Of a stretch of DNA of 64,000 nt, positions 28,866 through 60,155 are shown piece by piece. Under the pieces are notes generated by a model. That model was not told the DNA's origin and did no database searches. It saw only the letters and a list, made by a program, of their open reading frames with translations. The stretch is taken from positions 1 through 64,000 of the IMG/VR virus record IMGVR_UViG_3300048996_000137. The stretch is one strand, 5' to 3'. This stretch comes from a virus. Numbering within the stretch: position 1 is the stretch's first letter; each line of letters starts with the position of its first letter. Both the position numbers and the translations under genes were made by a program.

Positions 28866-29735
28866 CTACTTGGTCGTGATCTTGATCACGCCCGGCTTGG
28901 TCGAGCCGCGCACGCGACGGTAGCGGTGCGCCGCCCAGTACGTGTGCATCGCGATCAAGTCGGTGTCCGCGAGCGCGTCGTAGTCGGTGACGACCTTCGG
29001 CGGCGCCTGCCACCAGTACGCGAGCGCGGCTTCTTTCATCAGCAGCATCTCGTACTTCTGCGCGCCGTCGTTGAACGTCTTCATCTTGTCCGACACGACG
29101 ACCGGGATCCCGTTGAACATCGGGATCGGCTCGGCGCGCGTCGGCGTCGTCATCAACTGCTTTCCCGTCGAGTCCTTCAACTTCATCAGGTCGCGATACA
29201 GCTTCGAGTGCATCGCGAGCAGACGGATCGCGTCCTGCTGATCGCCCCACAGGCCCGTCGCGTCGATGATGACGTCGATGTCGATCTTGCCGCTGCCGAT
29301 GCCGCTCACATCGAGAGTGAACTCGGCCGGCACGCCGGTGTTCGCGACTTCGATCAAGGCCTTGTCGACGCGCCGCGTGTTGATCACGCGGAACTGTCGT
29401 CCGGCTTCCGCGTACGGATCGCCGAGCGAAGCCATGCGCGCCCACTCGGTGATCTCGAACGCTTTGCCCGAGTGCCTCACCGTCGCGGTATCCGCGTCCA
29501 TGCTGATGCTTTCGGGCGTCAGCGCATCGCCTTCGTTGACGATGTCCTCCATCTCACCGAGCGTGCCGAAGTAGGGCACCGTGACGGTGTCGCCACCGCG
29601 CTTGTCCATCGGCAGCGTGTTGCTCATGACGGCAACGCCGCTGCCGACGAGCACGTTTTGTCCCTCGAACTCGCCCTGTACTGCGTCGACGAGGATCTCT
29701 GGAATGACGAGGTCACTACGTTTGGTCAATGCCAT
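28866..29735 (-). CDS. Major capsid protein (HK97 fold)
   Basis: 289 residues preceded by a strong ribosome site (AGGAGAAGG). It has the HK97-type order: an extended N-arm region (DTVTVPYFGTLGEMEDI), a helical spine after AGRQFRVINTRRVDKAL, then the P-domain strands RLLAMHSKLYRDLMKLKD and MFNGIPVVVSDKM. It follows the protease-scaffold gene as in Mu-like heads. Confidence 0.8.
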   Translation of the reverse strand: MALTKRSDLVIPEILVDAVQGEFEGQNVLVGSGVAVMSNTLPMDKRGGDTVTVPYFGTLGEMEDIVNEGDALTPESISMDADTATVRHSGKAFEITEWARMASLGDPYAEAGRQFRVINTRRVDKALIEVANTGVPAEFTLDVSGIGSGKIDIDVIIDATGLWGDQQDAIRLLAMHSKLYRDLMKLKDSTGKQLMTTPTRAEPIPMFNGIPVVVSDKMKTFNDGAQKYEMLLMKEAALAYWWQAPPKVVTDYDALADTDLIAMHTYWAAHRYRRVRGSTKPGVIKITTK

Positions 29736-29791: not shown

Positions 29792-30379
29792 TTAGCGCTG
29801 CTCCTGTTGCGCTCGCATCGCGGCGTACTGCTCGCGATTGTCGACGTAGAGCTCGTGGCGCTCCTGAGGCTTCAGCTCGCCCCACTTCTTGCCCTTCCAC
29901 TTCAGCTCGATCTCGGAGTCGTCGTTGCCGCCGCCGCCGCCATCCGCGGCAACCGTCTTGGGCTGCTTGACGGGTTTGCCGTCGATCGACAGCACGTGCG
30001 GCGCGACCTGCAGAAAGGCCTCGAGCTCGCTGACGGAGCGGCTCTCGTAGTGCTTCTCGAGCGCCGGCGTGAGCTTGCGACCCTTCGGATCGGCCTTGTC
30101 GGCGGCGAGCAGCGTCACGCGCTTTTGCGCGTCGAGCGCAGCTGCATGCGAGCTCGCGTCGGACAGGAGCTTCGGCACCTGCGCCGCGGCTTCGGCCATG
30201 CCGCGCAGCGCCCCGAGTACTTCCTCGTCGTTGTCGCGCTTGGTGATCGCTCGCAGCTCGACCATCAAGCTGGTCGAGCGCTGGTGCTGCTGCTTCATGC
30301 GGTCGATCGCGTGAAGCACTGCCGATTCGTCTGCGTTTCCGTTCGCGCCGAGCGCGAGCGCAATGGCCGTGAGACTCAT
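29792..30379 (-). CDS. Nested scaffold protein from internal start (Mu gpZ-like)
   Basis: The ATG at 30379, in frame inside the protease gene, has AAAGGAC about 8 bases upstream, a better ribosome site than most full genes here. It would give a 195-residue scaffold without the protease domain, as with Mu Z and lambda Nu3. Confidence 0.65.
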   Translation of the reverse strand: MSLTAIALALGANGNADESAVLHAIDRMKQQHQRSTSLMVELRAITKRDNDEEVLGALRGMAEAAAQVPKLLSDASSHAAALDAQKRVTLLAADKADPKGRKLTPALEKHYESRSVSELEAFLQVAPHVLSIDGKPVKQPKTVAADGGGGGNDDSEIELKWKGKKWGELKPQERHELYVDNREQYAAMRAQQEQR

Positions 30380-31102
30380 GTCGTCTGTCCTTTCGTTGTC
30401 GTCGTCGTGCAGCGAGCCGTGGTCGCCGCGCTCGTCGTCTTCCGCGCCGCTGCGCAACAGAAATGCGCTTCGGCACGCGTGCATCACATCGGCCGGCACG
30501 TGCTCGTAGCCGTAGCGACCGAGATCGAAGTGCAGTCGCACCGACTTCGGCGCCGTCACGTTCTTGCCGCGCACGACTTCATCGACGAGGCCTCGCTCGA
30601 GCGCCTGGTCGGGCGTGAGCCACGTCTCAGCCCGCATCAGCTCGAGCATTTCTTCTTTGGGCTTGCCGCAGCGCTGCGCGTACAGCAGCGCCGCTTCATC
30701 GCTGATCGCGCGGAGCCGATTGATCGACTTCTGATGCGCGACGTCGTCACCGAACGTGTTGCCGCGCGCGGTGTGCATCATGTAGCTCGAGCCCTGATGC
30801 ATCCGGACGCGGTCGGCCGCGGTGCACAGCACGCTCGCGACGCTCGCGGCGAGGCCTTCGACGTCGATTTCGACTTTCGCCGGATGCGAGGCGAGCATCG
30901 AGCGCATCGTCATGCCGTCAAACGCGTTGCCGCCCGCCGACGACAGCTTGATGTTGATCAGCTCAACGTTCGGGTTTTCCTTCAACCGCTCCGCGAGCCA
31001 GGTCGGCCCGATGCCGTCGCGGAAAATGAAGTGCTCGCCGATGTCGCCGTACATCTGCAGTTGCAGCTGTGCGCCGCCCGCGAGAAGGAGGGCCTTGTGC
31101 AT
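29792..31102 (-). CDS. ClpP-like prohead protease fused to scaffold (Mu gpI-like)
   Basis: 436 residues from MHKALLLAGG. The N-terminal 235 residues are a ClpP/S14-type serine protease: SSAGGNAFDG forms the oxyanion region, S87 in GLAASVASVL is the nucleophile and H110 in SYMMHTA the base. A hinge rich in Asp/Arg leads to a scaffold domain beginning at residue 242 (SLTAIALALG), mostly helical and charged. In Mu and lambda this arrangement makes the protease and scaffold from one gene, and the protease removes the scaffold from the prohead. Confidence 0.8.
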   Translation of the reverse strand: MHKALLLAGGAQLQLQMYGDIGEHFIFRDGIGPTWLAERLKENPNVELINIKLSSAGGNAFDGMTMRSMLASHPAKVEIDVEGLAASVASVLCTAADRVRMHQGSSYMMHTARGNTFGDDVAHQKSINRLRAISDEAALLYAQRCGKPKEEMLELMRAETWLTPDQALERGLVDEVVRGKNVTAPKSVRLHFDLGRYGYEHVPADVMHACRSAFLLRSGAEDDERGDHGSLHDDDNERTDDMSLTAIALALGANGNADESAVLHAIDRMKQQHQRSTSLMVELRAITKRDNDEEVLGALRGMAEAAAQVPKLLSDASSHAAALDAQKRVTLLAADKADPKGRKLTPALEKHYESRSVSELEAFLQVAPHVLSIDGKPVKQPKTVAADGGGGGNDDSEIELKWKGKKWGELKPQERHELYVDNREQYAAMRAQQEQR

Positions 31103-31127: not shown

Positions 31128-31826
31128 TTACGGCTGCAGCGTCTTTTTGCGGCGCGCGCGCTGCTTCTGTTCGTGCTGCGCGAGCGCAGTGGGGTCGTAC
31201 GAGCTGCGGTCGAGCTCGAGCTCGGCGCGCACCGGAGGCGCGTAGCCAAAGCCCGGCTGCGGTTGGTGCTTACTCTTGATGTGCGCGCTCACTCCGTGCC
31301 GCGAAGCGGTGCTCGCGCTCACGCCGCGAACCCCCAACCGGCAGCCGTGATGCAGTGGCGGCCACATCAGCAGAAGCCCGGGGTTGTTCGCGCGCACCAC
31401 CGTGCGATGGAGCGAGCGGCACAGCTTGGTCGTGCCGCTATCGAGCACGGCCCAGTACATCCGAAAGGGCTTCTGCCCGAGCTCGAGCTGCTCCCAGCGC
31501 CCCACGTTGAGCGCGGTCTGCGTCTGCGTCTGAAACGTCGTCTTGAGCCGGTGGCTATCCACCTGCGCGAAGTCGTCGCGAAGCTTCTTTTTGAGGTGCG
31601 CCTGAAAGCCGGCGAAGTCGTCGCCCTTTTTCACTGCCGCGGCGAGCGCGTTGAGCGCGGCTTGCACGACGTTGAGCTGCGTGACGCCGCTGATCGTGAA
31701 TGCGGTCAGCTTCGCGCGCCGCTCGAGCGCGGCGTACTGAGCGTCAGTCACGGCCGTGCGCGAACGAAACCACTTCACCGCCGCGCGTCGCTCGAGCGGG
31801 CTCGTCGGGACTTTGCGCCAGGCCAC
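31128..31826 (-). CDS. Phage head morphogenesis protein, MuF / SPP1 gp7-like
   Basis: 232 residues. TTFQTQTQTALNVGRWEQL, then YWAVLDSGTTKLCRSLH and WPPLHHGCRLGV, match the MuF domain, a minor head protein attached to portal. The gene follows portal as in Mu. There is no extra toxin domain at the C-terminus, which is short and basic. Confidence 0.8.
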   Translation of the reverse strand: MAWRKVPTSPLERRAAVKWFRSRTAVTDAQYAALERRAKLTAFTISGVTQLNVVQAALNALAAAVKKGDDFAGFQAHLKKKLRDDFAQVDSHRLKTTFQTQTQTALNVGRWEQLELGQKPFRMYWAVLDSGTTKLCRSLHRTVVRANNPGLLLMWPPLHHGCRLGVRGVSASTASRHGVSAHIKSKHQPQPGFGYAPPVRAELELDRSSYDPTALAQHEQKQRARRKKTLQP

Positions 31827-31829
31827 CGA

Positions 31830-32084
31830 TCACTCCAGCGCGTCGTCGTCATCGTCTTCGCGCACGAAGTAGTAGGTGCCGCTGAGAGCTCGATCTACGG
31901 CTGCGTAATACGCTGCGCCGTTGGCGGGCGTCAGCAGCCCCGCGCCCGTGACGATGGTCTTGATGTGCGGGTAGAGATCCAGCGTCGCGGGCGGATCGAC
32001 GACAACTTGCCCGCCCACGAGCTCGAACGTGCACAGCGTCTCGTGTTCGAGGCTGTCCGGATCAACTTGGATGAGGCGTTTCAC
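31830..32084 (-). CDS. Small acidic protein between portal-kinase and MuF genes
   Basis: 84 residues, ATGA overlap with the portal-kinase stop. The end is strongly acidic (REDDDDDALE). The middle (YPHIKTIVTGAGLLTPANGA) is a compact alpha/beta segment. It could be a partner of the kinase domain, an idea based only on coupling. Confidence 0.5.
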   Translation of the reverse strand: MKRLIQVDPDSLEHETLCTFELVGGQVVVDPPATLDLYPHIKTIVTGAGLLTPANGAAYYAAVDRALSGTYYFVREDDDDDALE

Positions 32085-34963
32085 TTGGTCTTCCGCGAAA
32101 GCCGCGTGATCTCTTCGAGGTCTTTCTTCGAGAGCTCGTCTCTGCGAAACCGCTCTTCGGGAATCGCGTTGATCCAGTGGTGAACCGACTCGGCTGCGTC
32201 GTGCGCCGCGCTCCAGCGATAGCCATCCTGAAACTGGCGCGGCTCGTGCTGCAGCGAACGCACGCGCGCGAGCGTGGATGCGATCTGGTGCTCGGTGATG
32301 CCGTGGTCGTGCAGCATCGAGGCCACGTGCTCGAGCTTGAGGCTCTGGAGCGCCGAGACGTGCTCGGGCTGAAACTTCACAACTTCCTCGGCGAACGAAG
32401 GTGTTTGCTCGATCGCAAACAGGAACCGCGCCGGCCTCTCCGGAAATGTCAGGCCATGGTCGATCGCGACTGGGCGAAACGGATGCGCGTCGGGACCGTC
32501 CTCATGCCACAACGTGTTTTGCGGGTTGCGATCGTCGTTGCCGGCGATGAGGTCGAGCATCAGCATCCGCTTCGAGGCCGGATGCGCGCCGAGCTTGGCG
32601 AGCTCGGCGTCCCTGGAATCACGCGGATCTGCCGACGACCGCTGCTCAGCTCGCCCGATCGAATCGAAGTACACATTCATGCTCGACTTCGCGTTGGGCT
32701 CCCACGCCTGCAGCGAGCCGTCCTTGCCGTCGTGCTCGCGGTGCACGGTGTGCGGCACCATCTTGTCGCCGGCCAACATCTGATCGAGCTTGTGAAACGC
32801 CTGTTCGCGACGACCCATCGAGCCATTCGCAAGACCCGCGCGGTACTCCTCCATCTGCGGGATCGGCGGGTTGGCCTTCCAGATCGCGTGCTGCTCGTGG
32901 CCGTTTTTGTCGCGCAGCGTGAGGCGCTTCGAACCGAAGTTGCCCGTGTTCACATCGGTGGTGCTGACAACGTTGAGCTTCTCAGCCGTCATCCACTCGG
33001 GAGCCGCAGAAGCACCGCCGGGGGCTTTCTTGTCGGCAGCAGTCTTGCGCGATTTGCCGCTACGAGCTGGTTTGTCGCCATGCTCGGTCCCGCTTGCCGC
33101 TTTCTTCGTCTTCGTCGTCCTGGCGGCCGCTGGCTTCGCCGCGCGCGCCTTCACCTTTGCGATCCGCTCACGTGATGCTTTGCCGCGCTTGGCTGCAGCG
33201 CCGCCCGGACGCGATGCGAACCGCCCACCCTTGCCGTGGTTCGGGTTGAACAGCTCGGGCTCGAGCGACAGCCCAGGCTCGAGCTCTTCGTCGTCTTCGT
33301 CCTCTTCGTCGTCCTCGTCGACCGCGTGACGGCCCGCGAGGTTCGCCATCACGATGCCCGCTTCCAGAATCTCAGCGAGCGTGTCGGGATCCTGCTCGTC
33401 CGCGAAGGCCTTCAAGATCGCCGCGCGAGCACTCACGTAGTCCGTTGCGCCATCGACGGCCGCAACCAAGCGATCGACGAGCGGCTGCAGCGCCTGCGCA
33501 CCCTGCGCGACCGAAGCGTCCGCGACGTCGTCCACGTAGAGCTGACCGTTTACGAAGCCGGTGCTCGACTCTTCTTCTTCGTCGTCGTCGGCCGCGAGCC
33601 TGGCGCCCGGCTTGCGGGTCGGCTTGGTGCTACTGGGGAGTTTTTTTTTCAGGCCGCCACCGCCGCCGCCACCAGCTGCGCCCGGTGGAACGGGTGGAGG
33701 ATTGGCCGCGTCCTTCTCGGCCTGGCTCATCTCAGTGAGCTTGACGCCGTACTGCTCTTCGATCTCCGCGGCGGTGAGCTTGAAGCCCGCTTGCTGGATC
33801 GCGCCGAGCGCGGTGCCGAGTGTCGCGAGCGTTTCGACCTTCGCGCCTTTGTCCTCGGGCGGGTCGGTGTTGTAGCGAGGGAACGGCGCGAGGCCGCGAT
33901 CGCCGAAGTTGTACTCAGCCCACCACGGCAAGCTCTGCTCTTGCAGAATCCGTCCGAGCTTCTTCGACATGTACCTGAACACGCGGAGCTCTTTGCGCTC
34001 ATGCGTGTTCGCGGCGGCGTAGCTGCCGCCCTCCACTTCGGTCGTGAGGTTTTGCCCGACGAGCGCAAGCGTGAAGCCCATGTTCGCGGCTTCGATCTGC
34101 GCCTTGTAAATCGACTCGGTGCCGGCGGTCAGCTCGACGAGCTCGAGCGTGAACCCCTGCGGCAAACTGATGACCGCGTCCTTCGCGAGGTTGAAGATCT
34201 CGTTCGCGAGCGCGCGCCGGTCTTCGGGCAGCGCGCCTTCATTTGAGTTGAGGACGAGCTTCGAAGCTTTCTCCGAATGCACGCCCCAGTCGCTCATCGC
34301 GTAGCGCTTGAGCATCCACCACGGCGAGCAGCCTCGCCATTTGCCGTTCGACCACGGCCGGTAGTCACCCTTGAGCGTGCCGATGATCCATTCGCCGTCG
34401 CCGGCGACGATGGGCGTGTCGCGACCGCTCTCGTCGCGGAACAGCCACGTGTTGTGCTCCCAGTCCCAGCGAAAGTGTTTCGGGTGGTACGTCTTGAAGA
34501 CGGGCAAGACGCGTCCGCCAGACTTCGAGGGAAGCCACTGCACGTGCCGCCCGAACGCCAGGCCCACGATCTCGAGCCAATCGAGAAAGCTCGCGAGCTC
34601 GTCTTCGCCGTACGCGAGCGGCCAGTCTTCCTCGAGCTCGGCGGCTTTCTCCGCATCGCCGAGTGTCGAGCGCGCGTCCTTCTCGAACGACAGATCACAG
34701 CCGAGCACGCCGCCGCTGACGTCATCGAGCAGCTTGTTGATCCGATCGTCGGCGATCATCTGATCGCCGAGATCACCGAGCCGAATCAGATCGCCGCTGT
34801 CCGCAGTCGCAGTGAGCGTTTGCAGCGAGCGCGGCGTCCAGTGGAGATAGCTCCGAATGGACGGCTGACTGAGAACCTGCCCCTTGCCACCCTGAATGAG
34901 CTGCAGGTGGCCGCGCCGGTTTTTCTCCGGCGTGCCCGCAGTGGGTGGTCTACGGATGGCCAT
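32081..34963 (-). CDS. Portal protein (Mu gp29 / DUF935-like) fused to PI3/4K- or HipA-like kinase domain
   Basis: 960 residues from MAIRRPPTAG. Residues 1-440 are a DUF935-type portal: an ADDRINKLLDD segment, FGRHVQWLPSKSGGRVLPVF, and LVGQNLTTEVEGGSYAAAN typical of Mu-like portals. Residues 440-650 are a Gly/Lys/Asp-rich linker with FNPNHGKGGRFAS. Residues 654-910 look like an atypical kinase: Lys696 in HAIWKANPP, a catalytic-type loop LIAGNDDRNPQN (D811, N816) and a metal-binding AIDHG (D835). This order matches bacterial PI3/4-kinase-like and HipA-like enzymes. Portals are normally 400-550 residues, so the kinase is an addition. All core residues seem present; substrate unknown. Confidence 0.75.
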   Translation of the reverse strand: MAIRRPPTAGTPEKNRRGHLQLIQGGKGQVLSQPSIRSYLHWTPRSLQTLTATADSGDLIRLGDLGDQMIADDRINKLLDDVSGGVLGCDLSFEKDARSTLGDAEKAAELEEDWPLAYGEDELASFLDWLEIVGLAFGRHVQWLPSKSGGRVLPVFKTYHPKHFRWDWEHNTWLFRDESGRDTPIVAGDGEWIIGTLKGDYRPWSNGKWRGCSPWWMLKRYAMSDWGVHSEKASKLVLNSNEGALPEDRRALANEIFNLAKDAVISLPQGFTLELVELTAGTESIYKAQIEAANMGFTLALVGQNLTTEVEGGSYAAANTHERKELRVFRYMSKKLGRILQEQSLPWWAEYNFGDRGLAPFPRYNTDPPEDKGAKVETLATLGTALGAIQQAGFKLTAAEIEEQYGVKLTEMSQAEKDAANPPPVPPGAAGGGGGGGLKKKLPSSTKPTRKPGARLAADDDEEEESSTGFVNGQLYVDDVADASVAQGAQALQPLVDRLVAAVDGATDYVSARAAILKAFADEQDPDTLAEILEAGIVMANLAGRHAVDEDDEEDEDDEELEPGLSLEPELFNPNHGKGGRFASRPGGAAAKRGKASRERIAKVKARAAKPAAARTTKTKKAASGTEHGDKPARSGKSRKTAADKKAPGGASAAPEWMTAEKLNVVSTTDVNTGNFGSKRLTLRDKNGHEQHAIWKANPPIPQMEEYRAGLANGSMGRREQAFHKLDQMLAGDKMVPHTVHREHDGKDGSLQAWEPNAKSSMNVYFDSIGRAEQRSSADPRDSRDAELAKLGAHPASKRMLMLDLIAGNDDRNPQNTLWHEDGPDAHPFRPVAIDHGLTFPERPARFLFAIEQTPSFAEEVVKFQPEHVSALQSLKLEHVASMLHDHGITEHQIASTLARVRSLQHEPRQFQDGYRWSAAHDAAESVHHWINAIPEERFRRDELSKKDLEEITRLSRKTK

Positions 34964-35390: not shown

Positions 35391-35582
35391 ATGAACGTGC
35401 AACTCGAACTGTTCCCGTTACCGGCGACGACCTGTCGCTGCGGGCGCGCCCTGACGGCTTTCATCAACTGCTACCGCGAGCGTTGCGATCACTGCATCTT
35501 GCGCGAGGGTCCGCCGCCGGCCGGCGAAGATCCGGAGGCCAAGCGCGTCGCCCTCAAGCGTTGGCTGAACGCTCAGGTGTAG
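35391..35582 (+). CDS. Small zinc-finger-like protein of plus-strand island
   Basis: 63 residues. CRCGRA, then C and CDHC, give a four- to five-Cys zinc site. The start is in an ATGA overlap with a possible 7-residue reading frame (35371-35394). Its last ten bases overlap the end of the large terminase gene on the other strand. Confidence 0.55.
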   Translation: MNVQLELFPLPATTCRCGRALTAFINCYRERCDHCILREGPPPAGEDPEAKRVALKRWLNAQV

Positions 35583-37051
35583 CGACCGCCGCCGCCGAGC
35601 ACTCCGTAATCGTCGAGGTACAACAGCGCCGCATCGACACCGCTGACAATCGCATCCGTTTGATCGGACACGTCCTGCTCTGCGCCGGTGAAGCTCGTCA
35701 GCTCATCGACGAACACCGGCTGCCACGGGTGCGCCTCGATGTCTTCGGGCACAAGAATGCGGCCGAGGTTCCAGAGCTCGCTCGAGGTGAGCGAGCGCGT
35801 CAGCTTGTCGCGACCCTTCGGGTCCATCACGACGAGCGGGATGCCCTTTTCGCGAATGAACGAAGCGCAGCCCGCTTCAGTGCCCGACGCGTACCAGTAG
35901 AACTTCGCGCGACGTGTCGAAAACGCTGCCTTGAGCGTCAGCGTGAAGCTCGGCGCCTCGACCTGCTTGCGCTGCACATCCACGACGTAGAACAGATAAT
36001 CTTCTTTGCGCTGCTTCTCGCCGCGTTTGGTCTTCGCCGGCGGCACAACCCACAGCGTCACGAGCACGCTCCAGTCCGCGCGCGTTTTCGCGGTGTACGC
36101 GAGGTCTACGCCGTACACGACGCGGAAGCCCTCGGTGGGCAACTCGCGATAGTACGTCGGCGTCTTGAAGAGCGTTCCGCCGCGAGGCTGCGGCTGGCCC
36201 TGATACAGACTCGCGAAGTTCCACTGGTTGGCGAGCTGCCGCTCGAGCAGCATCGACAGTGGCCGGTGCGCTTCCCACAGCGCTTCGCCAACCGCCCGCT
36301 CGTCGCCGGCGGGCATGTCCTCGCCGTCGCAAATCGCTTTGAGGTTGATGTACTCGAACCCCTGCTCGCGCACGAGGTAGCCGGACAGATCGTCCGGATG
36401 CCAGCGCGTCGCCATCACGATCACGCTCGAGCCCGGATGAAGCCGCGACTCGACGGTGCCGTGGTACCAGTCCTGCTGGTACGCGCGCGTCGCTTGAGAT
36501 TCCGCTGCGCCGCGATCCTTGAGCGGATCGTCGACCATCATCACGCCGTCGATCGGCTCTCCGGTGAGCCCGCCGCCGACCGAGGTCCACACCACTTGGC
36601 CGAGCTCTTCGTTGAGCCACAGGCCACCGTTCGCGACGGTCAGCGGCACGCGCGCGCGCTGCGCCGTTACGAGCGCTTTGCGCGAGACGCGTCGCGCGCG
36701 ATCGTCGTTGTACGTCGCGTACGCGAATCGCAGCGCGGGCCACTTGCGCAGCCAGAAGCAAATCGCGTGGACAACCGTTTCGGTCTTGCCGTGCTGCGGC
36801 GGAGCCGCGAACACGATCCGCAAGTTCGCGCCCGGCGCCCGCTCGAGCACATCGACGTAGGGCTTGAGATGGAGCGGCGGTTCCCAGCGCGGTGTGATCC
36901 GCGGGATCCACTCCATCAGCGCGTCAGTGAACTGAGTTGGGTCCTGACTTAGGTCCGCGAGCAGCAGGCGCTGGCGGACTTTCTCTTCGAGCGAGGTATG
37001 CCGAGCAGAGTGCGCGGAAAACTTCTGGCTCAAGTAGCCCTTGGGCAACAT
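35573..37051 (-). CDS. terL: Terminase large subunit
   Basis: 492 residues. ATPase: Walker A PPQHGKT (84-90), Walker B VMMVDDP (D174, D175). Nuclease: VVYGVDLAYT (D316) with ADWSV (D326), and a C-terminal acidic patch (SDQTDAIVSGVDA). It packages DNA into the prohead and cuts it. The start lies 128 bases inside the small-subunit gene in another frame, an unusually long overlap; a later start near residue 46 (MEWIPRI) would remove most but not all of it. Confidence 0.9.
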   Translation of the reverse strand: MLPKGYLSQKFSAHSARHTSLEEKVRQRLLLADLSQDPTQFTDALMEWIPRITPRWEPPLHLKPYVDVLERAPGANLRIVFAAPPQHGKTETVVHAICFWLRKWPALRFAYATYNDDRARRVSRKALVTAQRARVPLTVANGGLWLNEELGQVVWTSVGGGLTGEPIDGVMMVDDPLKDRGAAESQATRAYQQDWYHGTVESRLHPGSSVIVMATRWHPDDLSGYLVREQGFEYINLKAICDGEDMPAGDERAVGEALWEAHRPLSMLLERQLANQWNFASLYQGQPQPRGGTLFKTPTYYRELPTEGFRVVYGVDLAYTAKTRADWSVLVTLWVVPPAKTKRGEKQRKEDYLFYVVDVQRKQVEAPSFTLTLKAAFSTRRAKFYWYASGTEAGCASFIREKGIPLVVMDPKGRDKLTRSLTSSELWNLGRILVPEDIEAHPWQPVFVDELTSFTGAEQDVSDQTDAIVSGVDAALLYLDDYGVLGGGGRYT

Positions 37052-37526
37052 CGAGGAACTCGTTGAGCTGGTCGTCGATCGTGTGAACGACGCGTGGCGA
37101 CCAGTGCTGCGGGTTGCGGAGCGCCAGGCGTTGGAACGCGACCATCGCGGCCGATTCCTTCACCTTCTGCGCGGCGCCCATCTCGCCGGCGAGCTGCAAC
37201 ATCTCATCGGTTGTGATCGCGTAGCGGTGCCCGCAGCGCTCGCACGCGACCGGCTTGTGGTCGAGGTTCGCCGCGCGCGCGGTCGTGATCACGTCGTTGA
37301 CTTCGCCCTCGTCGGACGCCTTCTGCGCCTCTTCGAGAAAGAGCGTGTACTTGTTGCGTTTGCCCGCGGCCGCGGCCGCACGCCACTCGTGCAGCCGCTG
37401 GCGGCGGATGCCGCACGCAGACAGCGCGGTGGAAAGCGTATTGCCGCCTCGGACCAGCAGAAGCACGCGCTCTCGAACTTCTTCGAGGCGCTTGGGCGCT
37501 TCAGACTTCTTCTTCGGCGGCAGCAC
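36924..37526 (-). CDS. Terminase small subunit candidate
   Basis: 200 residues with an N-terminal HTH (GGNTLSTALSACGIRRQRLHE, about residues 28-50) for DNA recognition, a central CERCGHRY half zinc finger, and a helical C-terminus. It lies directly before and overlaps the large subunit. The HTH and position fit TerS of Mu-like and other phages. Confidence 0.7.
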   Translation of the reverse strand: MLPPKKKSEAPKRLEEVRERVLLLVRGGNTLSTALSACGIRRQRLHEWRAAAAAGKRNKYTLFLEEAQKASDEGEVNDVITTARAANLDHKPVACERCGHRYAITTDEMLQLAGEMGAAQKVKESAAMVAFQRLALRNPQHWSPRVVHTIDDQLNEFLDVAQGLLEPEVFRALCSAYLARRESPPAPAARGPKSGPNSVH

Positions 37527-38616
37527 GCGCTACGTCCGTCAGCGGTTCTTCGTCTGCTTTTTCTTCGTCTTCTTGGCCGACTTCTTCGCTGCCTTCGCCG
37601 GTGCGCTCGGCGCTTTCTGTGCCGTTCTCTTCGTCATGCTCGTCTCCAACAACGGGGTGCTCTTCGTCCTGTTCGAGCTCGGGTAGTTCGCGGTCGACGA
37701 TCGGGATCGCCACGAGCGCATCGCGCGCCATCGCGGCCTCGCGCTCAGTCATCTGCGTGATCTCACGGGCGGCGGCTTCGCGCGACTGCTCCGCGATGCG
37801 GGTCTGCTCGGCGCGCTGCTGCTGGTAGAGCGGCTCGAGCAGCGCATGCAGGCGCTTGCCGTCCTGGAATGTGTTGATCTCGAGGCCGAGCGTTGTCATG
37901 AACTTCTCGCTGTCCTCGACGTCCTTGAACACCACCACGATGTAGAAGTGCTCGCGATCGCGGCCCGCGTTCAGGTTCGCAGTCACCGCGTCGATCGCAC
38001 CGCTCACATCGCGCTGCGCCTGCGCGAGCGCTTGCAGCTCCACGCCATGCTCGAGCGCAAAGGGGCTCTCCCCCAGCACGTGCATGATGTCCGCCATGTC
38101 GAAGCCGGTGGCTTCGAGGCGCAAACCCTCGGTCCGCAGCGCCGCATCGAGCTTTTCGAGATCGAACAGCCCGTGCGTCTCGGGGTTGTTCAGCAGGATG
38201 TTCGCCTCGACCTCTTCGGCGAACGTGAGATCGACCTCCGCAACCTGCAGCGCGTACGCGGGCTTGCCGCCCGCGAGCTTGTCGAGCAGAGCGAGGCGCT
38301 GATGGCCGCCGACGAGCGTGCCACTGCGCCCGTTCCATACGAGCGGCTGGAGCAAGCCCAGCTTCTCGAGCCCGCCGCGCAGCTTCTTACGAGACTGGTC
38401 GCTGATCACGCGCGGGTTGTATTCGGCGTTCTTGATGTCCGCGCGCCAGATCGTGCGAGCTCGGTACTTCTGAAGCGGATGCACGTGCGCCAGCAGGTCG
38501 GCGCCGACGTCGCGTTCGGCTCCCCCTCCCACTGCAGCCATTCTCGGTGCATCCCCTGCTACCGCAGCACTTAGCGGGGAGACCGGGTCGTCGGTGGGCT
38601 CAGATGCCGACGCCAT
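37501..38616 (-). CDS. ParB/Srx-like domain protein (IbrB-like)
   Basis: 371 residues. Residues about 55-170 form a ParB N-terminal-type domain: AEYNPRVISDQSRKKLRGGL, then LGLLQPLVWN and TLVGGHQRL. The GGHQR string is the phosphate/nucleotide-binding box. The C-terminal 100 residues are acidic repeats. Next to a PAPS-reductase-like gene it recalls the IbrB-IbrA pair of enterobacterial prophages. No partition partner is present, so plasmid-type segregation is unlikely. Confidence 0.7.
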   Translation of the reverse strand: MASASEPTDDPVSPLSAAVAGDAPRMAAVGGGAERDVGADLLAHVHPLQKYRARTIWRADIKNAEYNPRVISDQSRKKLRGGLEKLGLLQPLVWNGRSGTLVGGHQRLALLDKLAGGKPAYALQVAEVDLTFAEEVEANILLNNPETHGLFDLEKLDAALRTEGLRLEATGFDMADIMHVLGESPFALEHGVELQALAQAQRDVSGAIDAVTANLNAGRDREHFYIVVVFKDVEDSEKFMTTLGLEINTFQDGKRLHALLEPLYQQQRAEQTRIAEQSREAAAREITQMTEREAAMARDALVAIPIVDRELPELEQDEEHPVVGDEHDEENGTESAERTGEGSEEVGQEDEEKADEEPLTDVARAAAEEEV

Positions 38617-49367: not shown

Positions 49368-50371
49368 CGGGGGTCTCCCATCCACTCCGGGTTCTGTTGC
49401 GCCGCGTCTGTGAACTCCTGCTCGGTGCCGACGCGGCCCATCGATGCGTCGCCCGCCGCGACCGTCGTGAACCAGCGACCGGGATCGTTGGCCCACGCCC
49501 AAAACGGCCAGCCGCCGGCCTTGCCCTCTTTGTCGCCGCGCGAGAATTCCAAAAAGTTTTTGATGCTCACCCGGCACGCCGCGAGCGGTTCTTTCGGGTC
49601 CTCCTCGAGGGCCCACGCGACAGCGGACTGCGCGCGGTCGTAGTCGGTGCGTTTCTGCTGGAAGCTGCCGCCGCCAGCTTCACGGCGCAGGTCTGAGAAC
49701 GCTCCGATGATCACGCTCGAATCAAACAACCTGATGTGAGTCACCCCTGGGGGTGACTCTTCGTGCGCGCGCACGCGCGTCTGGGTTCCAGTTCCAGTTC
49801 TAGATCCAATTCCCTTCCCTTCCCTTCCCCCGGTGTCTGCCGGGGTAGGAGCGGCACGGGTGATTTCGGCCGCGCCGACCGTCGCCGGCCCCGATTCCAC
49901 GCGTGCCGACGCGTGACCCACGCGTGACCCACGCGTCACTGACGCGAGTTTCTCGGCTGCCTGCGCGATGCCCGGCGCGACGGGTACGGGCTCGGGCAGC
50001 GATTGGCCGTTGTCGTTGGCCGCGATGGCGCTCGGCGGCGGCGGCGGCAGCTTCGACTGCTGCTCCTTCGGGTTGATGACCTGGTGCTTTTTGAACGTCC
50101 GCACCCAGCCGTACGAGCGACCCTCGAACTCGTAGCGGACGATGAACTTCGGGGCGAGCGTGTCCATCGCCGCCGCGAAGTCGCCCTCCCACCACGGCAA
50201 GATCACGGTCTTGAGCCGCCGCGGCCGCCACTCGAAACGCCCGTCCCGATCGCTGTAGTTCCACAGGCCCGTGAACAGGCGGTAGAGCGGCATGCCGCTC
50301 TGCTCTTCGAGATCCCACAGCTCCTCGTCCAAATGCACTTCGGGTTTGATGCTGCGGATGCGCGGGATCAT
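49364..50371 (-). CDS. Phage replication initiator, O-like
   Basis: 335 residues. The N-terminal 110 residues form a winged helix seen in phage replisome organisers: RIRSIKPEVHLDEELWDLEE, RLFTGLWNYSDRDGRFEW and WVRTFKKHQVINPKEQQ. A long Pro/Gly-rich linker (about 110-210) leads to a helical C-terminal domain likely to contact the loader. The phage origin often lies within such a gene, and 49741-49935 holds short repeats of GTGACCCACGC. Confidence 0.7.
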   Translation of the reverse strand: MIPRIRSIKPEVHLDEELWDLEEQSGMPLYRLFTGLWNYSDRDGRFEWRPRRLKTVILPWWEGDFAAAMDTLAPKFIVRYEFEGRSYGWVRTFKKHQVINPKEQQSKLPPPPPSAIAANDNGQSLPEPVPVAPGIAQAAEKLASVTRGSRVGHASARVESGPATVGAAEITRAAPTPADTGGREGKGIGSRTGTGTQTRVRAHEESPPGVTHIRLFDSSVIIGAFSDLRREAGGGSFQQKRTDYDRAQSAVAWALEEDPKEPLAACRVSIKNFLEFSRGDKEGKAGGWPFWAWANDPGRWFTTVAAGDASMGRVGTEQEFTDAAQQNPEWMGDPR

Positions 50372-54627: not shown

Positions 54628-55844
54628 AGTTCCTCGGCCTGGGTGACCTGCACTGGCTCGAGCGTTCGCGCTTGGGCGAGTGCAGGCGCATCCACGACTA
54701 CATCCTCGAGCTCGTGCGCGCACACCGCCCCGATGGCGTCTTGTGCGGAGGTGACGTCTACGACGGGGCTTCGACTCCGTACGAGCGGTCGCTGGTCGCG
54801 CAGTTCTGGCAGGCCGTCGCGGAGGTCTGCCCGGTCATCATCGCGAAGGGCAACCACGACCGCCTGCTCGACTGCGCGCTGCTCGCGCGCCTCAAGTCGA
54901 AACACCCGATCATGGTCCAGGAAGCCGCGGGCATCCATCGGATCGGGGACGCGCTGATCGCAGTCGTCGCGTGGCCGGAGCGCCAGTCGATCCTCAGCTG
55001 GTCGCGCGCGCACAAGCTCGAGCCGGACGCGCTCGAGCAGACCGTGCTGCAAAACATCCTGCGAGGCTTGGGCGCCGAGCTCGCGAAGCACAACGGCCCG
55101 AAGCTCGCGCTCGGCCACTTCATGGTGTCGGGCGCGTCTGTGAGCACGGGCCAGCCGCTGCTCGGTCAACCGATGACGGTGTCGCTCGCGGACCTGTCGC
55201 TCTTGCAAGCGCCCGTCGTGCTGATGAGTCACATCCACAAGCCGCAGACGTTCGAGTTTGGCGATCAGCGGTTTTTGTACATGGGTTCGCCGTACCGCAC
55301 GAGCTACGGAGAGACCGAGGACAAGAGCGTCACCCTCGTCGAGTTTGATGACGACGACGACATCACTCCAGGCAGAGTCCTCCTTGGTGGTTTGCGCCCG
55401 GGTGCTGCACCCAGCTGCGCGCGCCTGATCCTGCCGTGCGCGCACATGTACCTGATCGATGCGGAGTGGGAGCACGACGTCTTAGCCGACGGATACGCGC
55501 TGCGGTCGGAGGACCGATGGCTGTCGACCCTTTCAACATTCCCTGGCGACGTGAGCAACGCCGAGATTCGCTTGCGCTACACCGTCGACCCCGATCGACG
55601 TGAAGCCGCGGCCGCCGTGGCCGCAGCCTTGGAGCAGAAGTGGTACGAGCGCGGGGCCGCGGACGTGAAGCTCGACCCGTGCGTGCGTACGAGCGTGCGC
55701 GCGCGAGCGCCCGAAGTCGCGCAAGCGACGACGCTACCGGACAAGCTGAGCGCGCTCTGGAACGCGCGCAACGCAATGCCCGACGACGCGCGAAAAGAAC
55801 GCCTTTTTGAGCTGGCTTCTGAGCTCGAACGCAGTACGGAGTGA
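54624..55844 (+). CDS. sbcD: SbcD/Mre11-like nuclease
   Basis: 406 residues from a GTG overlapping the previous stop. Calcineurin-like metal motifs in order: GLGDLH (D8, H10), CGGDVYD (D44), AKGNHDR (N77, H78), LGHFMVSG and MSHIHKP. The enzyme would use manganese to resect DNA ends together with the SbcC/Rad50 ATPase encoded next. Its C-terminal 150 residues differ from bacterial SbcD and may bind its partner. Confidence 0.85.
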   Translation: MKFLGLGDLHWLERSRLGECRRIHDYILELVRAHRPDGVLCGGDVYDGASTPYERSLVAQFWQAVAEVCPVIIAKGNHDRLLDCALLARLKSKHPIMVQEAAGIHRIGDALIAVVAWPERQSILSWSRAHKLEPDALEQTVLQNILRGLGAELAKHNGPKLALGHFMVSGASVSTGQPLLGQPMTVSLADLSLLQAPVVLMSHIHKPQTFEFGDQRFLYMGSPYRTSYGETEDKSVTLVEFDDDDDITPGRVLLGGLRPGAAPSCARLILPCAHMYLIDAEWEHDVLADGYALRSEDRWLSTLSTFPGDVSNAEIRLRYTVDPDRREAAAAVAAALEQKWYERGAADVKLDPCVRTSVRARAPEVAQATTLPDKLSALWNARNAMPDDARKERLFELASELERSTE

Positions 55845-55845
55845 C

Positions 55846-58266
55846 ATGCGCTACGACCATTTGACGATCCGAGACTTGGGGCCGTTCAAACACGTCGACC
55901 TCGACTTCGCCGCCATCAGCGGCAAGCTCGTCGCCGTCTGCGGAGACAACGGCTCGGGCAAAACCACGCTGCTCGAGCTCTTGCCCGGAGCGCTCTACCG
56001 CAACTGCCCGACGCGCGGCAGCCTCACTGACCTTGCGACCAGCCGCAACGCATTCGTGGAGGTCGCGGCCGCGAACGGCAAGGCCTGGACGATCCGACAG
56101 AGCGCCGACGGCACGTCCGGCAAGAGCGAGGCCCTCATCCTGAACTCGGCCGGTGCGCCCGTGCTCGAAAGCGCGAAGGTGCGCGATGCGGACGCGTGGG
56201 TCGCGCGACACCTGCCACCGCCCGAAGTGATGTACGCGTCGAGTTTCCTCGCGCAGCAGTCGACCGGGTTTTTGGAGCTGTCCGCAGCCGAGCGTAAGCG
56301 CGTGCTCTTGCGGCTGCTTCGCATCGAGCGCTACGAGCGCATGGCGGAGCGTGCACGCGAAAAGTCGCGCGGCAGCAAGGCCGAGTGCGAGACGCTTCGC
56401 GCGCGCATCGAGGAAGCCCGCGGTGAGGACGTCGAAGCGCTCACGACCGCGCGCGCCGAGCTCGTGGTCCAACAGTCAGAGCTCGCGCTCGAGTGCACCG
56501 AGCTCGAGCAGCGGCTTGCGACGGTGCGGCAAGAGCTCGCGACCGTCAACGCCACCGTGACCCAGTCGCAGAAGCGACTGCCGCTCGAAGCGCACCTGGG
56601 CGAGCTCGAGCGCGATCACAAGCTCGCGCGCGATCGCATCGCGAATAACCGCCGGCTGATCGCGGACGAGGTCAAGATCCGAGCGCGGGCCACGCAGCAG
56701 CGCGAGCTCACGAAAGAGCGCGACGAAAACGCAAACGAACGAACCACCATGCAGCCCGCGATCGCAGGCAAGCTCGAGGAGTCGCGCGCGGCTACGGCTC
56801 GGCGTGATCGCGCGCTCGAGCGGGTGCACGAATCTGAAGCGGAGATCGAGAGCCGCAAGGCGCAAAAGGCCGCGGCTGCCAAAGCCGAAACCGCGCGCGC
56901 GAAGCTGCCCGCTGCGCGTGCGGCGCACGAAGCCGCGAGAACCAAGCTGCGCGAGATCGACGAAAAGCTGAGCGAGGCGCGCAAGCTCCTGGTCGACGGT
57001 CGCGACGCGCGGATCGGCAAGCTGCGCACGGGCCTGGTCGTGATCGGCAAGGGCACCGCCAATCCGAAGCGCACCGCGTCGAGCACGCTCGAGGACGACG
57101 ACGGGCTCGTGCGCGCACAGCGCGCTGCGCCCGCGACGATCAAGCGCCTGGAAGCCTCGCGCGACGCGGCCGACACCGGCTGCGACGAAGCGAATGAAGC
57201 GCTCGCAGAGCTTCGCGAGCTCGCGAACGCCAAGGACGGCAAGGATGCGGAGCGCGCGCTCGCGACGGCTCAAACGGCCCTCGCGCGAGCCGAAGCTGAA
57301 GCGGAGACCGAAGGCAACGCCGCCGTCGTCGCGAGCCTCGAAATGAAGAAACTGCGCGGGCAAGCGAACAAGCTCGACAAGCGGCTCGCGTTTCTCAACA
57401 CGTCACTGATGCAACCGGACGTGGCTGGCGCGCTCGAGCTCGAAAAAAAGCTCGAAGGTGCGCATGCCCGAATCGAAGAGCTCGAGCCATCCGAAAAGCG
57501 CATGGCCGCCGAGCTCGAGCGGCTGCGCGCGGAGATCGCGTCGCTGCCTGCCGCACCCGGCCCGCGCCTGGTCGAGCTCGATGGAGTCATTCGGCTGGTG
57601 CAGACCACGCTCGAGCAAAAGCGTGGTCGCAGCGGCCAGCTGGTGCAGAACATCGCTGCACTGGCGCAGCGGATCACGACTGCCGAAGCCGCGGACGTGC
57701 GTGCACGGACGTTTGAGACTTCGCTCGAGCTCGCCGAACGTGAACTCGCCGACTACACGCGCCTCGGCCAGGACCTCGGCAAGGACGGTTTGCAAGCGCT
57801 CGAGATCGACGCGAGCATTCCCGAGCTCAACACGCTGGCGAACGACCTCTTGCACACGTGTCACGGTGGGCGCTTCACGGTCGAGCTCCGGACCGACCGC
57901 GTTGCGGCCGACGGCAAGCGCATGTTGGAGGACCTCGAGGTGCGGGTGATCGACACCGAGCACGGCCGCGATGCGCCCGTCGAGACGTATTCGGGGGGCG
58001 AAAAGGTGATCGTCGGGGAAGCGATCAGCCTCGCGCTCACGATGGTTGCGTGCCATCGCGCGGGACTGACCGCGCCTACGCTCGTGCGCGACGAATCCGG
58101 CGCCGCGCTCGACCCCGGTAACGGGCGCTCGTACATCGCGATGCTTCGCCGAGCCGCGGAGCTCGTCGGTGCGGACAAGGTGCTGTTCGTGACCCACGAC
58201 CCCGAGCTGCAAGCGCTTGCGGACGCACGGATCGATGTGGGTGACGGAACTGCTGTGATTGCATGA
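55846..58266 (+). CDS. sbcC: SbcC/Rad50-like ATPase
   Basis: 806 residues, ATG one base after the previous stop. N-lobe GDNGSGKTT (33-41), Q-loop region YASSFLAQQ (near 130), a coiled coil of about 500 residues, then signature YSGGEK (716), Walker B-like VRDESG (D749, E750) and VTHD. The middle of the coil has no CxxC zinc hook, unlike most Rad50/SbcC. The Walker B strand reads LVRDES instead of a hydrophobic run. Confidence 0.85.
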   Translation: MRYDHLTIRDLGPFKHVDLDFAAISGKLVAVCGDNGSGKTTLLELLPGALYRNCPTRGSLTDLATSRNAFVEVAAANGKAWTIRQSADGTSGKSEALILNSAGAPVLESAKVRDADAWVARHLPPPEVMYASSFLAQQSTGFLELSAAERKRVLLRLLRIERYERMAERAREKSRGSKAECETLRARIEEARGEDVEALTTARAELVVQQSELALECTELEQRLATVRQELATVNATVTQSQKRLPLEAHLGELERDHKLARDRIANNRRLIADEVKIRARATQQRELTKERDENANERTTMQPAIAGKLEESRAATARRDRALERVHESEAEIESRKAQKAAAAKAETARAKLPAARAAHEAARTKLREIDEKLSEARKLLVDGRDARIGKLRTGLVVIGKGTANPKRTASSTLEDDDGLVRAQRAAPATIKRLEASRDAADTGCDEANEALAELRELANAKDGKDAERALATAQTALARAEAEAETEGNAAVVASLEMKKLRGQANKLDKRLAFLNTSLMQPDVAGALELEKKLEGAHARIEELEPSEKRMAAELERLRAEIASLPAAPGPRLVELDGVIRLVQTTLEQKRGRSGQLVQNIAALAQRITTAEAADVRARTFETSLELAERELADYTRLGQDLGKDGLQALEIDASIPELNTLANDLLHTCHGGRFTVELRTDRVAADGKRMLEDLEVRVIDTEHGRDAPVETYSGGEKVIVGEAISLALTMVACHRAGLTAPTLVRDESGAALDPGNGRSYIAMLRRAAELVGADKVLFVTHDPELQALADARIDVGDGTAVIA

Positions 58267-58292: not shown

Positions 58293-60155
58293 ATGACGAA
58301 ACATGCTCTGGCGCTGTCGAAGGACCTGACACTACCGGCCGACGCAGCGACGCAGACGTTTGCGTTCCTCGGACGGAAGGGTAGCGGCAAAACTTACGCC
58401 GCGGGCAAGCTCGTCGAACTTTTGCTCCAAGCGCAGACGCAAGTCGTGATCTTGGACACGGTCGGCAACTGGTACGGGTTGCGCCTCTCCGCCGACGGCA
58501 AGAAGCGCGCGTTCGACATTCCGGTGATCGGTGGACTGCGCGGAGATGTGCCGCTCGAAGCCGAAGGCGGGGCGCTCATCGCAGACACGCTGATGGACAC
58601 CGGTCGCAGCGCGATCGTGGACATCTCGCAGTTTTCGAAGGCCGCGCGGCAGCGTTTTGCGACGGCGTTCGGTGAGCGGCTGTGGCAGCGAAAAAAAGCC
58701 GACCACCATCCGGTACCGCTGACGTTGGTGATCGAAGAGGCTCAGCTCATCGTGCCGCAGGCGGTCGCCGGCGACACCGCGCGCATGGTGGGCATCTACG
58801 AGGAGATCATTCGGCTCGGCCGCAACTACGGCATCGGCGTCGTGATGATCTCCCAGCGCCCGCAGTCGGTGAACAAAGAAGTCCTCAATCAAACCGAGTG
58901 TCTGTGCGTGTTTCAGACGTCGGGCGCGCAGGAACGCGACGCGCTCAAAAAGTGGATCGTGGATCAGGGCGGCAGCGTCGACCTGATCAAGGAGCTGCCG
59001 AGCTTGCCGATCGGCACGGGCTACTTGTGGAGCCCGCAGTGGTTGCAGGTGTTCAAGCGGATCACGATCGCGCCGAAGACGACGTACGACTCGACCGCAA
59101 CGCCCAAGCCCGGCCAGAAGCGCGCGACCGCGAAGCTCGCGCCGCTCGACTTGGATGACCTGGCCACGCGCATGAAAGAGGTAGTCGAGCGCGCGAAGCA
59201 GGACGATCCGAAGGCCTTGCGCAAGCGCATCGCCGAGCTCGAGCGGGACGCCGAACAGCGCCGGCTGGTCAGCGAGAAGTGGGCGCAGCGAGAGCACGAG
59301 CTCCTTCTGAAGCTCGACAAAAAGAAGCCGGGTAAGCCCGTCGAGATCAAGGCGCCGGTGCTCGACCCAAAGGCGCGCGCGATGCTCGACACGTTGGTGA
59401 AAGCCGGACGGCAGGCCTCGACCCAGCTCGAAGCGTTGCAAAAGCGCGTCCTCGCGGCCGCAACTCAACCGCCGCACGACCCGCGGCAGCTGTCGATCGA
59501 GCAGCTCGCGGGTGCGGTGATCTCTCCGCCGCCGCGGCACGGCAAGAGGATTGCGATGCAGGCGATCGCGAACCTGCAGAACGCCCGACCCATCACGCTC
59601 GCCGACTTCGAGGCAACGGCGAAGGCTCAAACCCAATCGACGACGCGGGCTTTCTTCGGCATCGATCACGCAGCGAAGGACGGCAACGGACACGCCGATG
59701 CGCACGTGGGCGACGGGGAGCGAAAAATCCTCACCGCGGCAGCGCAAAATCCAGACGGCGCGTCGCGCGAGCAGCTGACGCTGTTCACCGGCTACAAGCG
59801 CTCGACGCGCGATCGCTACATCCAGCGCTTGCGCCAGAAGGACCTCGTGCTCGAACAGGGCGGGCAGATCGTTGCGAGCCCGGCCGGAGTTGCGTGGCTC
59901 GGCGACGACTATGTGCCGCTGCCGCGCGGAGCGGCACTCCTGCATCACTGGATGGGGCGCTTGCCCGAAGGCGAGCGCGCAGTGCTTCAGGTCGTGGTGC
60001 ATCACCACCCGCAGGCCGTACCGCGCGATGAGATCAGCGAAGCGACGGGCTACAAACGTTCGACGCGCGATCGCTACTTGCAGCGCCTCGCACTTCGCAA
60101 GCTCGTGAGCAACGCCGACCGCGACGGCATCGTCGCGAGCAAAGAGCTGTTTTGA
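58293..60155 (+). CDS. HerA-type DNA-translocating ATPase with two C-terminal winged helices
   Basis: 620 residues. FtsK/HerA-type core: Walker A GRKGSGKT (27-34), Walker B LTLVIEEAQ (near 145), and IRLGRNYGIGVVMISQRPQS with a Gln as in HerA. A charged linker (about 280-400) leads to a C-terminus where GYKRSTRDRYIQRL (near 499) recurs as GYKRSTRDRYLQRL (near 585), two near-copies of a winged helix. In archaea HerA pumps DNA for resection with Mre11-Rad50 and NurA. No NurA is present here. Confidence 0.75.
   Translation: MTKHALALSKDLTLPADAATQTFAFLGRKGSGKTYAAGKLVELLLQAQTQVVILDTVGNWYGLRLSADGKKRAFDIPVIGGLRGDVPLEAEGGALIADTLMDTGRSAIVDISQFSKAARQRFATAFGERLWQRKKADHHPVPLTLVIEEAQLIVPQAVAGDTARMVGIYEEIIRLGRNYGIGVVMISQRPQSVNKEVLNQTECLCVFQTSGAQERDALKKWIVDQGGSVDLIKELPSLPIGTGYLWSPQWLQVFKRITIAPKTTYDSTATPKPGQKRATAKLAPLDLDDLATRMKEVVERAKQDDPKALRKRIAELERDAEQRRLVSEKWAQREHELLLKLDKKKPGKPVEIKAPVLDPKARAMLDTLVKAGRQASTQLEALQKRVLAAATQPPHDPRQLSIEQLAGAVISPPPRHGKRIAMQAIANLQNARPITLADFEATAKAQTQSTTRAFFGIDHAAKDGNGHADAHVGDGERKILTAAAQNPDGASREQLTLFTGYKRSTRDRYIQRLRQKDLVLEQGGQIVASPAGVAWLGDDYVPLPRGAALLHHWMGRLPEGERAVLQVVVHHHPQAVPRDEISEATGYKRSTRDRYLQRLALRKLVSNADRDGIVASKELF

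Follow-up and report, generated by a model that had tools for sequence, protein, structure and literature searches.

Does the portal protein of a phage carry a kinase at its C-terminus, and what could such an enzyme do there? This question is raised by an open reading frame at positions 32081-34963 (minus strand) of the window, the 64,000-nucleotide stretch of DNA analysed here, which is nearly all of a 64,626-base IMG/VR record. The frame encodes 960 amino acids and comprises a Mu gp29-type portal followed by a kinase domain in the last ~305 residues. A preliminary description had proposed a portal fused to a complete-looking kinase; a single frame, the motifs in the order described, the predicted fold and the conserved residues all bear this out. 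The features of the region are as follows.

35573-37051, minus strand: terminase large subunit (phrog_38, E 8e-57)
33305-34963, minus strand: Mu gp29-type portal part, residues 1-553 (PF06074 at residues 65-407, positions 33743-34771)
33002-33304, minus strand: linker, residues 554-654, without counterpart in portal relatives
32084-33001, minus strand: putative kinase domain, residues 655-960, starting at PEWMTA, with a predicted type II PI4K-like fold (from profiles, AlphaFold (AF2) and residues)
31830-32084, minus strand: companion gene, 84 residues; it starts with a GTG that overlaps the stop codon of the portal-kinase gene (GTGA)
31128-31826, minus strand: MuF head protein, 232 residues, without effector extension (PF04233, E 9.7e-11, residues 59-163)
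29792-31102, minus strand: ClpP-type prohead protease with a Mu I-like part (PF00574, E 3e-19; PF10123, E 7e-5)
28866-29735, minus strand: major capsid protein (PF05065, E 3e-8)

These genes belong to a minus-strand module for the head and a contractile tail (terminase, portal, the 84-residue gene, MuF, ClpP-type protease, capsid, sheath and tape measure), in which the portal-kinase frame lies between the terminase gene upstream and the MuF, protease and capsid genes downstream. Upstream of the terminase is a ParB-like protein with matches to DNA-methyltransferase families (37501-38616, minus strand). Elsewhere in the window, on the plus strand, we observed a tRNA-Asp gene (49978-50071), an SbcC-like nuclease subunit (55807-58266; phrog_77, E 1e-50) and a second terminase-like match (58293-60155; phrog_2666, residues 4-222, E 1e-22).

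The portal part is unambiguous. PF06074 matched residues 65-407 with an E-value of 6.7e-41 (141 bits against a curated cut-off of 23.9), and the alignment with the portals of Meiothermus phage MMP7, Thermus phage Riverbug and Myxococcus phage Mx4 reaches their very ends, with homology up to about residue 553. Therefore, the unconserved linker is about 100 residues long (554-654) and not 200, as first supposed. It consists of an acidic stretch, followed by FNPNHGKGGRFAS and then by an 80-residue basic stretch of Lys, Arg, Ala, Gly and Ser; residues 586-665 contain 21 K+R, 6 D+E and 39 A/G/P/S. The frame from portal to kinase is uninterrupted, and GC3 stays at 0.76-0.87 along the whole ORF, even over the join. 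The portal is the sole structural domain of the protein, MuF being encoded by its own gene. A single effector domain is present, whereas polyvalent proteins, which are delivered with the virion, have two or more (PMC5512222).

From the analysis of the C-terminal part, we observed that the kinase motifs, K696 (HAIWK), G808-N809-D810-D811-R812-N813 and A833-I834-D835-H836-G837, are in frame with the portal. The domain extends to the stop codon (32084) and is best started at PEWMTA, residue 655 (33001), and the bounds 32234-33004 given earlier are revised accordingly. The ATP lysine (K696), the αC glutamate (E720), the catalytic aspartate (D811) and the metal-binding residues (N816 and D835) are all present, and the same positions are kept in 83 relatives (K, D811, N816 and D835 in 83/83, E in 82/83). 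As the D/R/N and ID motifs served to recruit these relatives and K and E did not, the latter two residues provide an independent test of conservation.

Among curated families, the best match was the SCO1664 family (TIGR03843, E 6e-10); its 38.9 bits compare with an equivalog cut-off of 172.4, and hence the window kinase is not a member of that family. PF00454 matched with E 6e-6, reaching 27.1 bits in the genome search, exactly at its curated cut-off of 27.1, and 24.8-26.7 bits in a second search. A profile made from a seven-member alignment matched solved PI4K-IIα by sequence (E 3e-7). The preliminary description had named structure prediction as a check of the fold. The AlphaFold model of the kinase, built from the seven-member alignment, has a pTM of 0.83 and a mean pLDDT of 78.6, and in the comparison with the PDB its best match was PI4K-IIβ (Z 20.1, rmsd 3.5, 239 residues). 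PI4K-IIβ and PI4K-IIα stood alone at Z 19-20 (rmsd 3.5, 239-243 residues), followed by the HipA-like CtkA (Z 13.5), FAM20 (13.3) and mTOR (12.6). Thus, of the two affinities proposed earlier, the PI3/4-kinase-like one stands and the HipA-like one is more distant; HipA as the closest fold was dropped on this ranking. The HipA profiles PF07804 and PF20613 gave no match to the window protein at E-values up to 1, and three family members (L133, L124 and L134) match HipA profiles weakly to clearly. The agreement among the profiles, the PI4K-IIα match and the predicted fold exceeds chance, and together they support the assignment of the second domain as a complete-looking kinase of the PI3/4-kinase superfamily, with type II PI4K as the nearest predicted fold. 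The modelled fold does not discriminate between a protein, a lipid and a small molecule, and the target cannot be told from it.

One residue could point to a domain that is catalytically dead and uses its fold for binding alone. Position 813 is Asn in the window kinase and His in 83/83 relatives, so that the change is peculiar to this protein. However, K696, E720, D811, N816 and D835 are intact, and in solved PI4K-II the residue corresponding to N813 is Gly (DRGNDN). We consider a dead decoration improbable.

Next, we asked whether the kinase occurs elsewhere. Single-sequence searches with the window kinase gave no match in IMG/VR, GTDB genomes, phages or plasmids, whereas motif patterns and profiles recovered a family of at least 147 ORFs on IMG/VR viral contigs. 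All of them were recruited by iterative motif and profile scans starting from the window kinase, some are near-duplicates, and mostly the kinase is C-terminal to a virion protein. Among 74 non-redundant pre-kinase parts (carriers), 30 have MuF (PF04233) and three others have a portal-family domain. One of the latter, L150, has the portal (PF04860, E 1e-59), MuF and the kinase in a single frame. The portal matches of the other two, L141 (E 2e-5) and L266 (E 0.002), are below the Pfam cut-off; in L266 a 2H domain separates portal and kinase. As to the search of portal families suggested in the preliminary description, the kinase domain is present in 0/107 portal relatives, but it does recur on these portal-type carriers.

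In a 100-row tree, the window kinase is nested among MuF-labelled kinases: together with five of these it makes up a set of six, supported by SH-aLRT (95) and without bootstrap values. L152 received its MuF label by sequence reading and not from Pfam. The nearest kinases (L236, L237, L238 and L239) are 35-40% identical to it; Pfam gives clear support for MuF in L238, weak support in L236 and L239, and no support in L237. The MuF-fused nearest relatives begin the kinase domain at the same PxWMTA-type stretch.

Relatives are also present in isolated viruses, namely Myxococcus phage Mx1, HSTV-2 and HCTV-6. The kinase of L150 as a query found Mx1 and haloviruses, and the profile matched the Mx1 kinase with E 2e-29 and that of HSTV-2 with E 4e-23. 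tblastn with three MuF-borne family kinases as queries matched no isolated phage, and protein searches of 288 Myxococcota-linked genomes gave four weak partial matches only. In the archaeal virus HSTV-2 (genes 16-17; L272:5491-7183), the kinase gene has head genes on one side and tail genes on the other, and is overlapped downstream by a 76-residue gene with a weak likeness to the companion (E 0.003). In HHTV-1 (genes 13-14; L271:9436-13022), a 1100-residue protein contains a family kinase (E 2e-14) and is directly followed by a 95-residue gene and then by gpF; the 95-residue gene has no convincing match to the companion profile.

The family also includes other combinations. A single protein carries MuF, a Zeta toxin and the kinase (L136:6244-9084, minus strand), and in another one the kinase is joined to the C-terminal domain of an Fe/Mn superoxide dismutase and to a part that is a putative metallopeptidase (L206:4714-7293, minus strand). 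Pfam reported an intein splicing domain in two carriers, and by sequence reading intein/HINT-like inserts are present in L194 and in the ORF (L266:6696-8243, plus strand) that follows the portal-2H-kinase protein of L266.

Directly behind the portal-kinase gene is the 84-residue companion gene. We searched iteratively for its homologues among 33,782 ORFs, ignoring position, and almost all of them turned out to be directly behind kinase genes. Of 144 kinase loci, 59 have a match to the companion profile directly downstream of the kinase, and seven further matches are located elsewhere in such loci; the companion follows kinase ORFs whatever the chassis. Among the portal carriers, L150 has it, as does L141 weakly. 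The closest companions (39-43% identity) belong to the closest kinases, those of L236, L237, L238 and L239. We found no homologue in the kinase-free portal loci (L002-L109), many of which have MuF-like ORFs, and the idea that the companion is a general neighbour of MuF was dropped on this ground. Since the companion follows kinases on differing chassis and has no homologue in kinase-free portal loci, kinase and companion appear from these sequence comparisons to form a mobile two-gene cassette, placed in frame at the portal/MuF boundary. A MuF-like ORF follows the portal in 69 portal relatives, and in 52 of these it starts at most 8 nt past the portal stop, so that the cassette is located at an ordinary gene border. 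The simplest history, judged from the sequences, would be that the cassette came from another phage, in which it was attached to a MuF gene, and settled at the boundary between portal and MuF. The preliminary description had noticed neither the cassette nature of the kinase, nor its usual carriage by MuF, nor the dedicated companion gene downstream.

These results bear on whether the fusion is an assembly chimera or the product of a lost stop codon. The exact join is known from one contig, and the kinase domain is missing from all 107 portal relatives. On the other hand, the frame is clean, with even GC3 over the join, the coupled companion and then MuF follow at once, and unrelated contigs have a portal-type protein with the same kinase and the companion. 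A frameshift or an assembly join, which was to count against the fusion, is unlikely because other contigs have the kinase-companion pair too, with MuF or a further portal-type protein as the carrier; we would give a chimera hardly any credence. The view of a unique fusion or artefact was dropped once the family and the companion had been found. We concluded that, on the evidence to date, the fusion of portal and kinase is real and recurs in other portal-type proteins.

The AF2 model of the companion is confident (pLDDT 92); the comparison with the PDB gave no convincing match (best Z 2.3), the sequence has no Pfam match and the window copy has no PHROG match. It is a separate small gene in most loci, whereas in L133, L200, L205 and L194 a companion-like domain forms the N-terminus of a longer protein. 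In L133 a 2H-like stretch comes next; L205 and L200 have an HPR...GGxF linker at this place, as in other virion effectors. The fusion to the next large protein suits docking at least as well as inhibition, and the companion might be a docking or co-packaging partner that anchors the kinase, or else the virion protein encoded next, in the head, rather than an inhibitor. Two observations argue against this role: the separate small gene in most loci, and the position on the opposite strand, convergent with the kinase, in L237, owing to which expression of the companion is not necessarily coupled to that of the head operon. Docking is therefore a possible role, though one that we regard as rather unlikely.

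How, then, might the cassette work? The portal would form a dodecameric ring at the vertex of the head, and portal C-termini point into the head interior. Therefore, about twelve kinases per particle would be located beside the packaged DNA on basic tethers. No portal is known to leave the head or to be ejected, and release of the kinase would thus probably require cleavage of the linker. A candidate for this cleavage is the ClpP-type protease, whose gene is the second one after that of the companion. Once released, the kinase would most likely exit with the DNA and phosphorylate a host target early in infection, while in the producing cell the companion would most likely bind it and keep it inactive. 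The kinase ends a portal and travels with a partner gene that other phages carry beside it, usually on MuF; hence, by analogy, the phage probably packs the kinase in the particle to act on the next host.

Alternatively, the kinase could be an enzyme of virion assembly that stays at the portal vertex, is never delivered, and phosphorylates head or packaging proteins in morphogenesis or genome exit. This would agree with the portal being a fixed part of the virion and with kinase genes lying within head modules or, in HSTV-2, between head and tail genes. However, kinase-free portals are the rule in the same family, so the domain is dispensable for assembly, and in the kinase family there are combinations with domains of effector type (Zeta toxin, 2H and GNAT). 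An assembly role appears unlikely to us.

Effector fusions to MuF and portal proteins are established, and packaging and injection have been proposed for them (PMC5512222, PMC9503650). In the MuF polymorphic toxins of temperate phages, small ORFs lie downstream of 89%, and an immunity function has been proposed for these small genes (PMC5576092). On the strength of these parallels, the kinase is most likely an effector that the companion restrains in the producing cell. As a whole, we lean slightly towards a working portal with a two-gene effector cassette, whose virion-packaged kinase would be delivered to the next host under restraint by its companion. More tentatively, and with somewhat less than even confidence, we propose that this is one instance of an undescribed, widespread system, in which a PI4K-II-like kinase and a cognate ~80-residue inhibitor of unrecognised fold would move between chassis (MuF, portal and possibly neck) in bacterial and archaeal tailed viruses, the portal version loading about twelve copies for release into the next host. 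Were this so, phages would deliver a type of kinase best known from eukaryotic signalling, built into the DNA gateway of the particle, and portal C-termini would be interchangeable carriers for effectors. Kinase and companion make a compact, testable pair.

The nearest known enzymes are the type II PI4-kinases (PI4K2A/PI4K2B; PDB 4hnd, 4pla and 9hhm), which share the fold (Z ~20 over 239 residues) at 17-19% identity to the window kinase, and share GSxQxF, DxIxxNxDRxxxN and AIDNGLxFP with the family. Type II PI4-kinases have a palmitoylated CCPCC motif; in contrast, residues 655-960 of the window protein contain no cysteine and hence lack it. HSTV-2 gene 16 and HCTV-6 gp16, which are haloarchaeal phosphatidylinositol kinase genes, and the Mx1 kinase belong to the same family and to virion gene blocks but, unlike the window kinase, are not fused to a portal. 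The MuF polymorphic toxins resemble the present fusion in having an effector C-terminal on a head protein and a small gene directly downstream; there the chassis is MuF and here it is the portal, and the word kinase is absent from that paper (PMC5576092). Portal fusions to PBECR, 2H and Nudix also place an enzymatic domain on the portal, but of other enzyme classes and, in the passages of PMC5512222 and PMC9503650 consulted, without mention of a companion gene. Kinases of polyvalent proteins likewise occur in virion-linked multidomain proteins, but are of the Ser/Thr/Tyr type without a C-lobe (PMC5512222), whereas the fold here is PI4K-II-like. Like the preliminary description, which knew of no portal-kinase fusion, our literature search, covering open-access journal papers, found no portal fused to a PI4K-II-like kinase and no description of the companion. 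As far as we found, this type of enzyme is new to portals and its companion is undescribed. The fusion itself falls into an already known class, that of effectors carried by virions.
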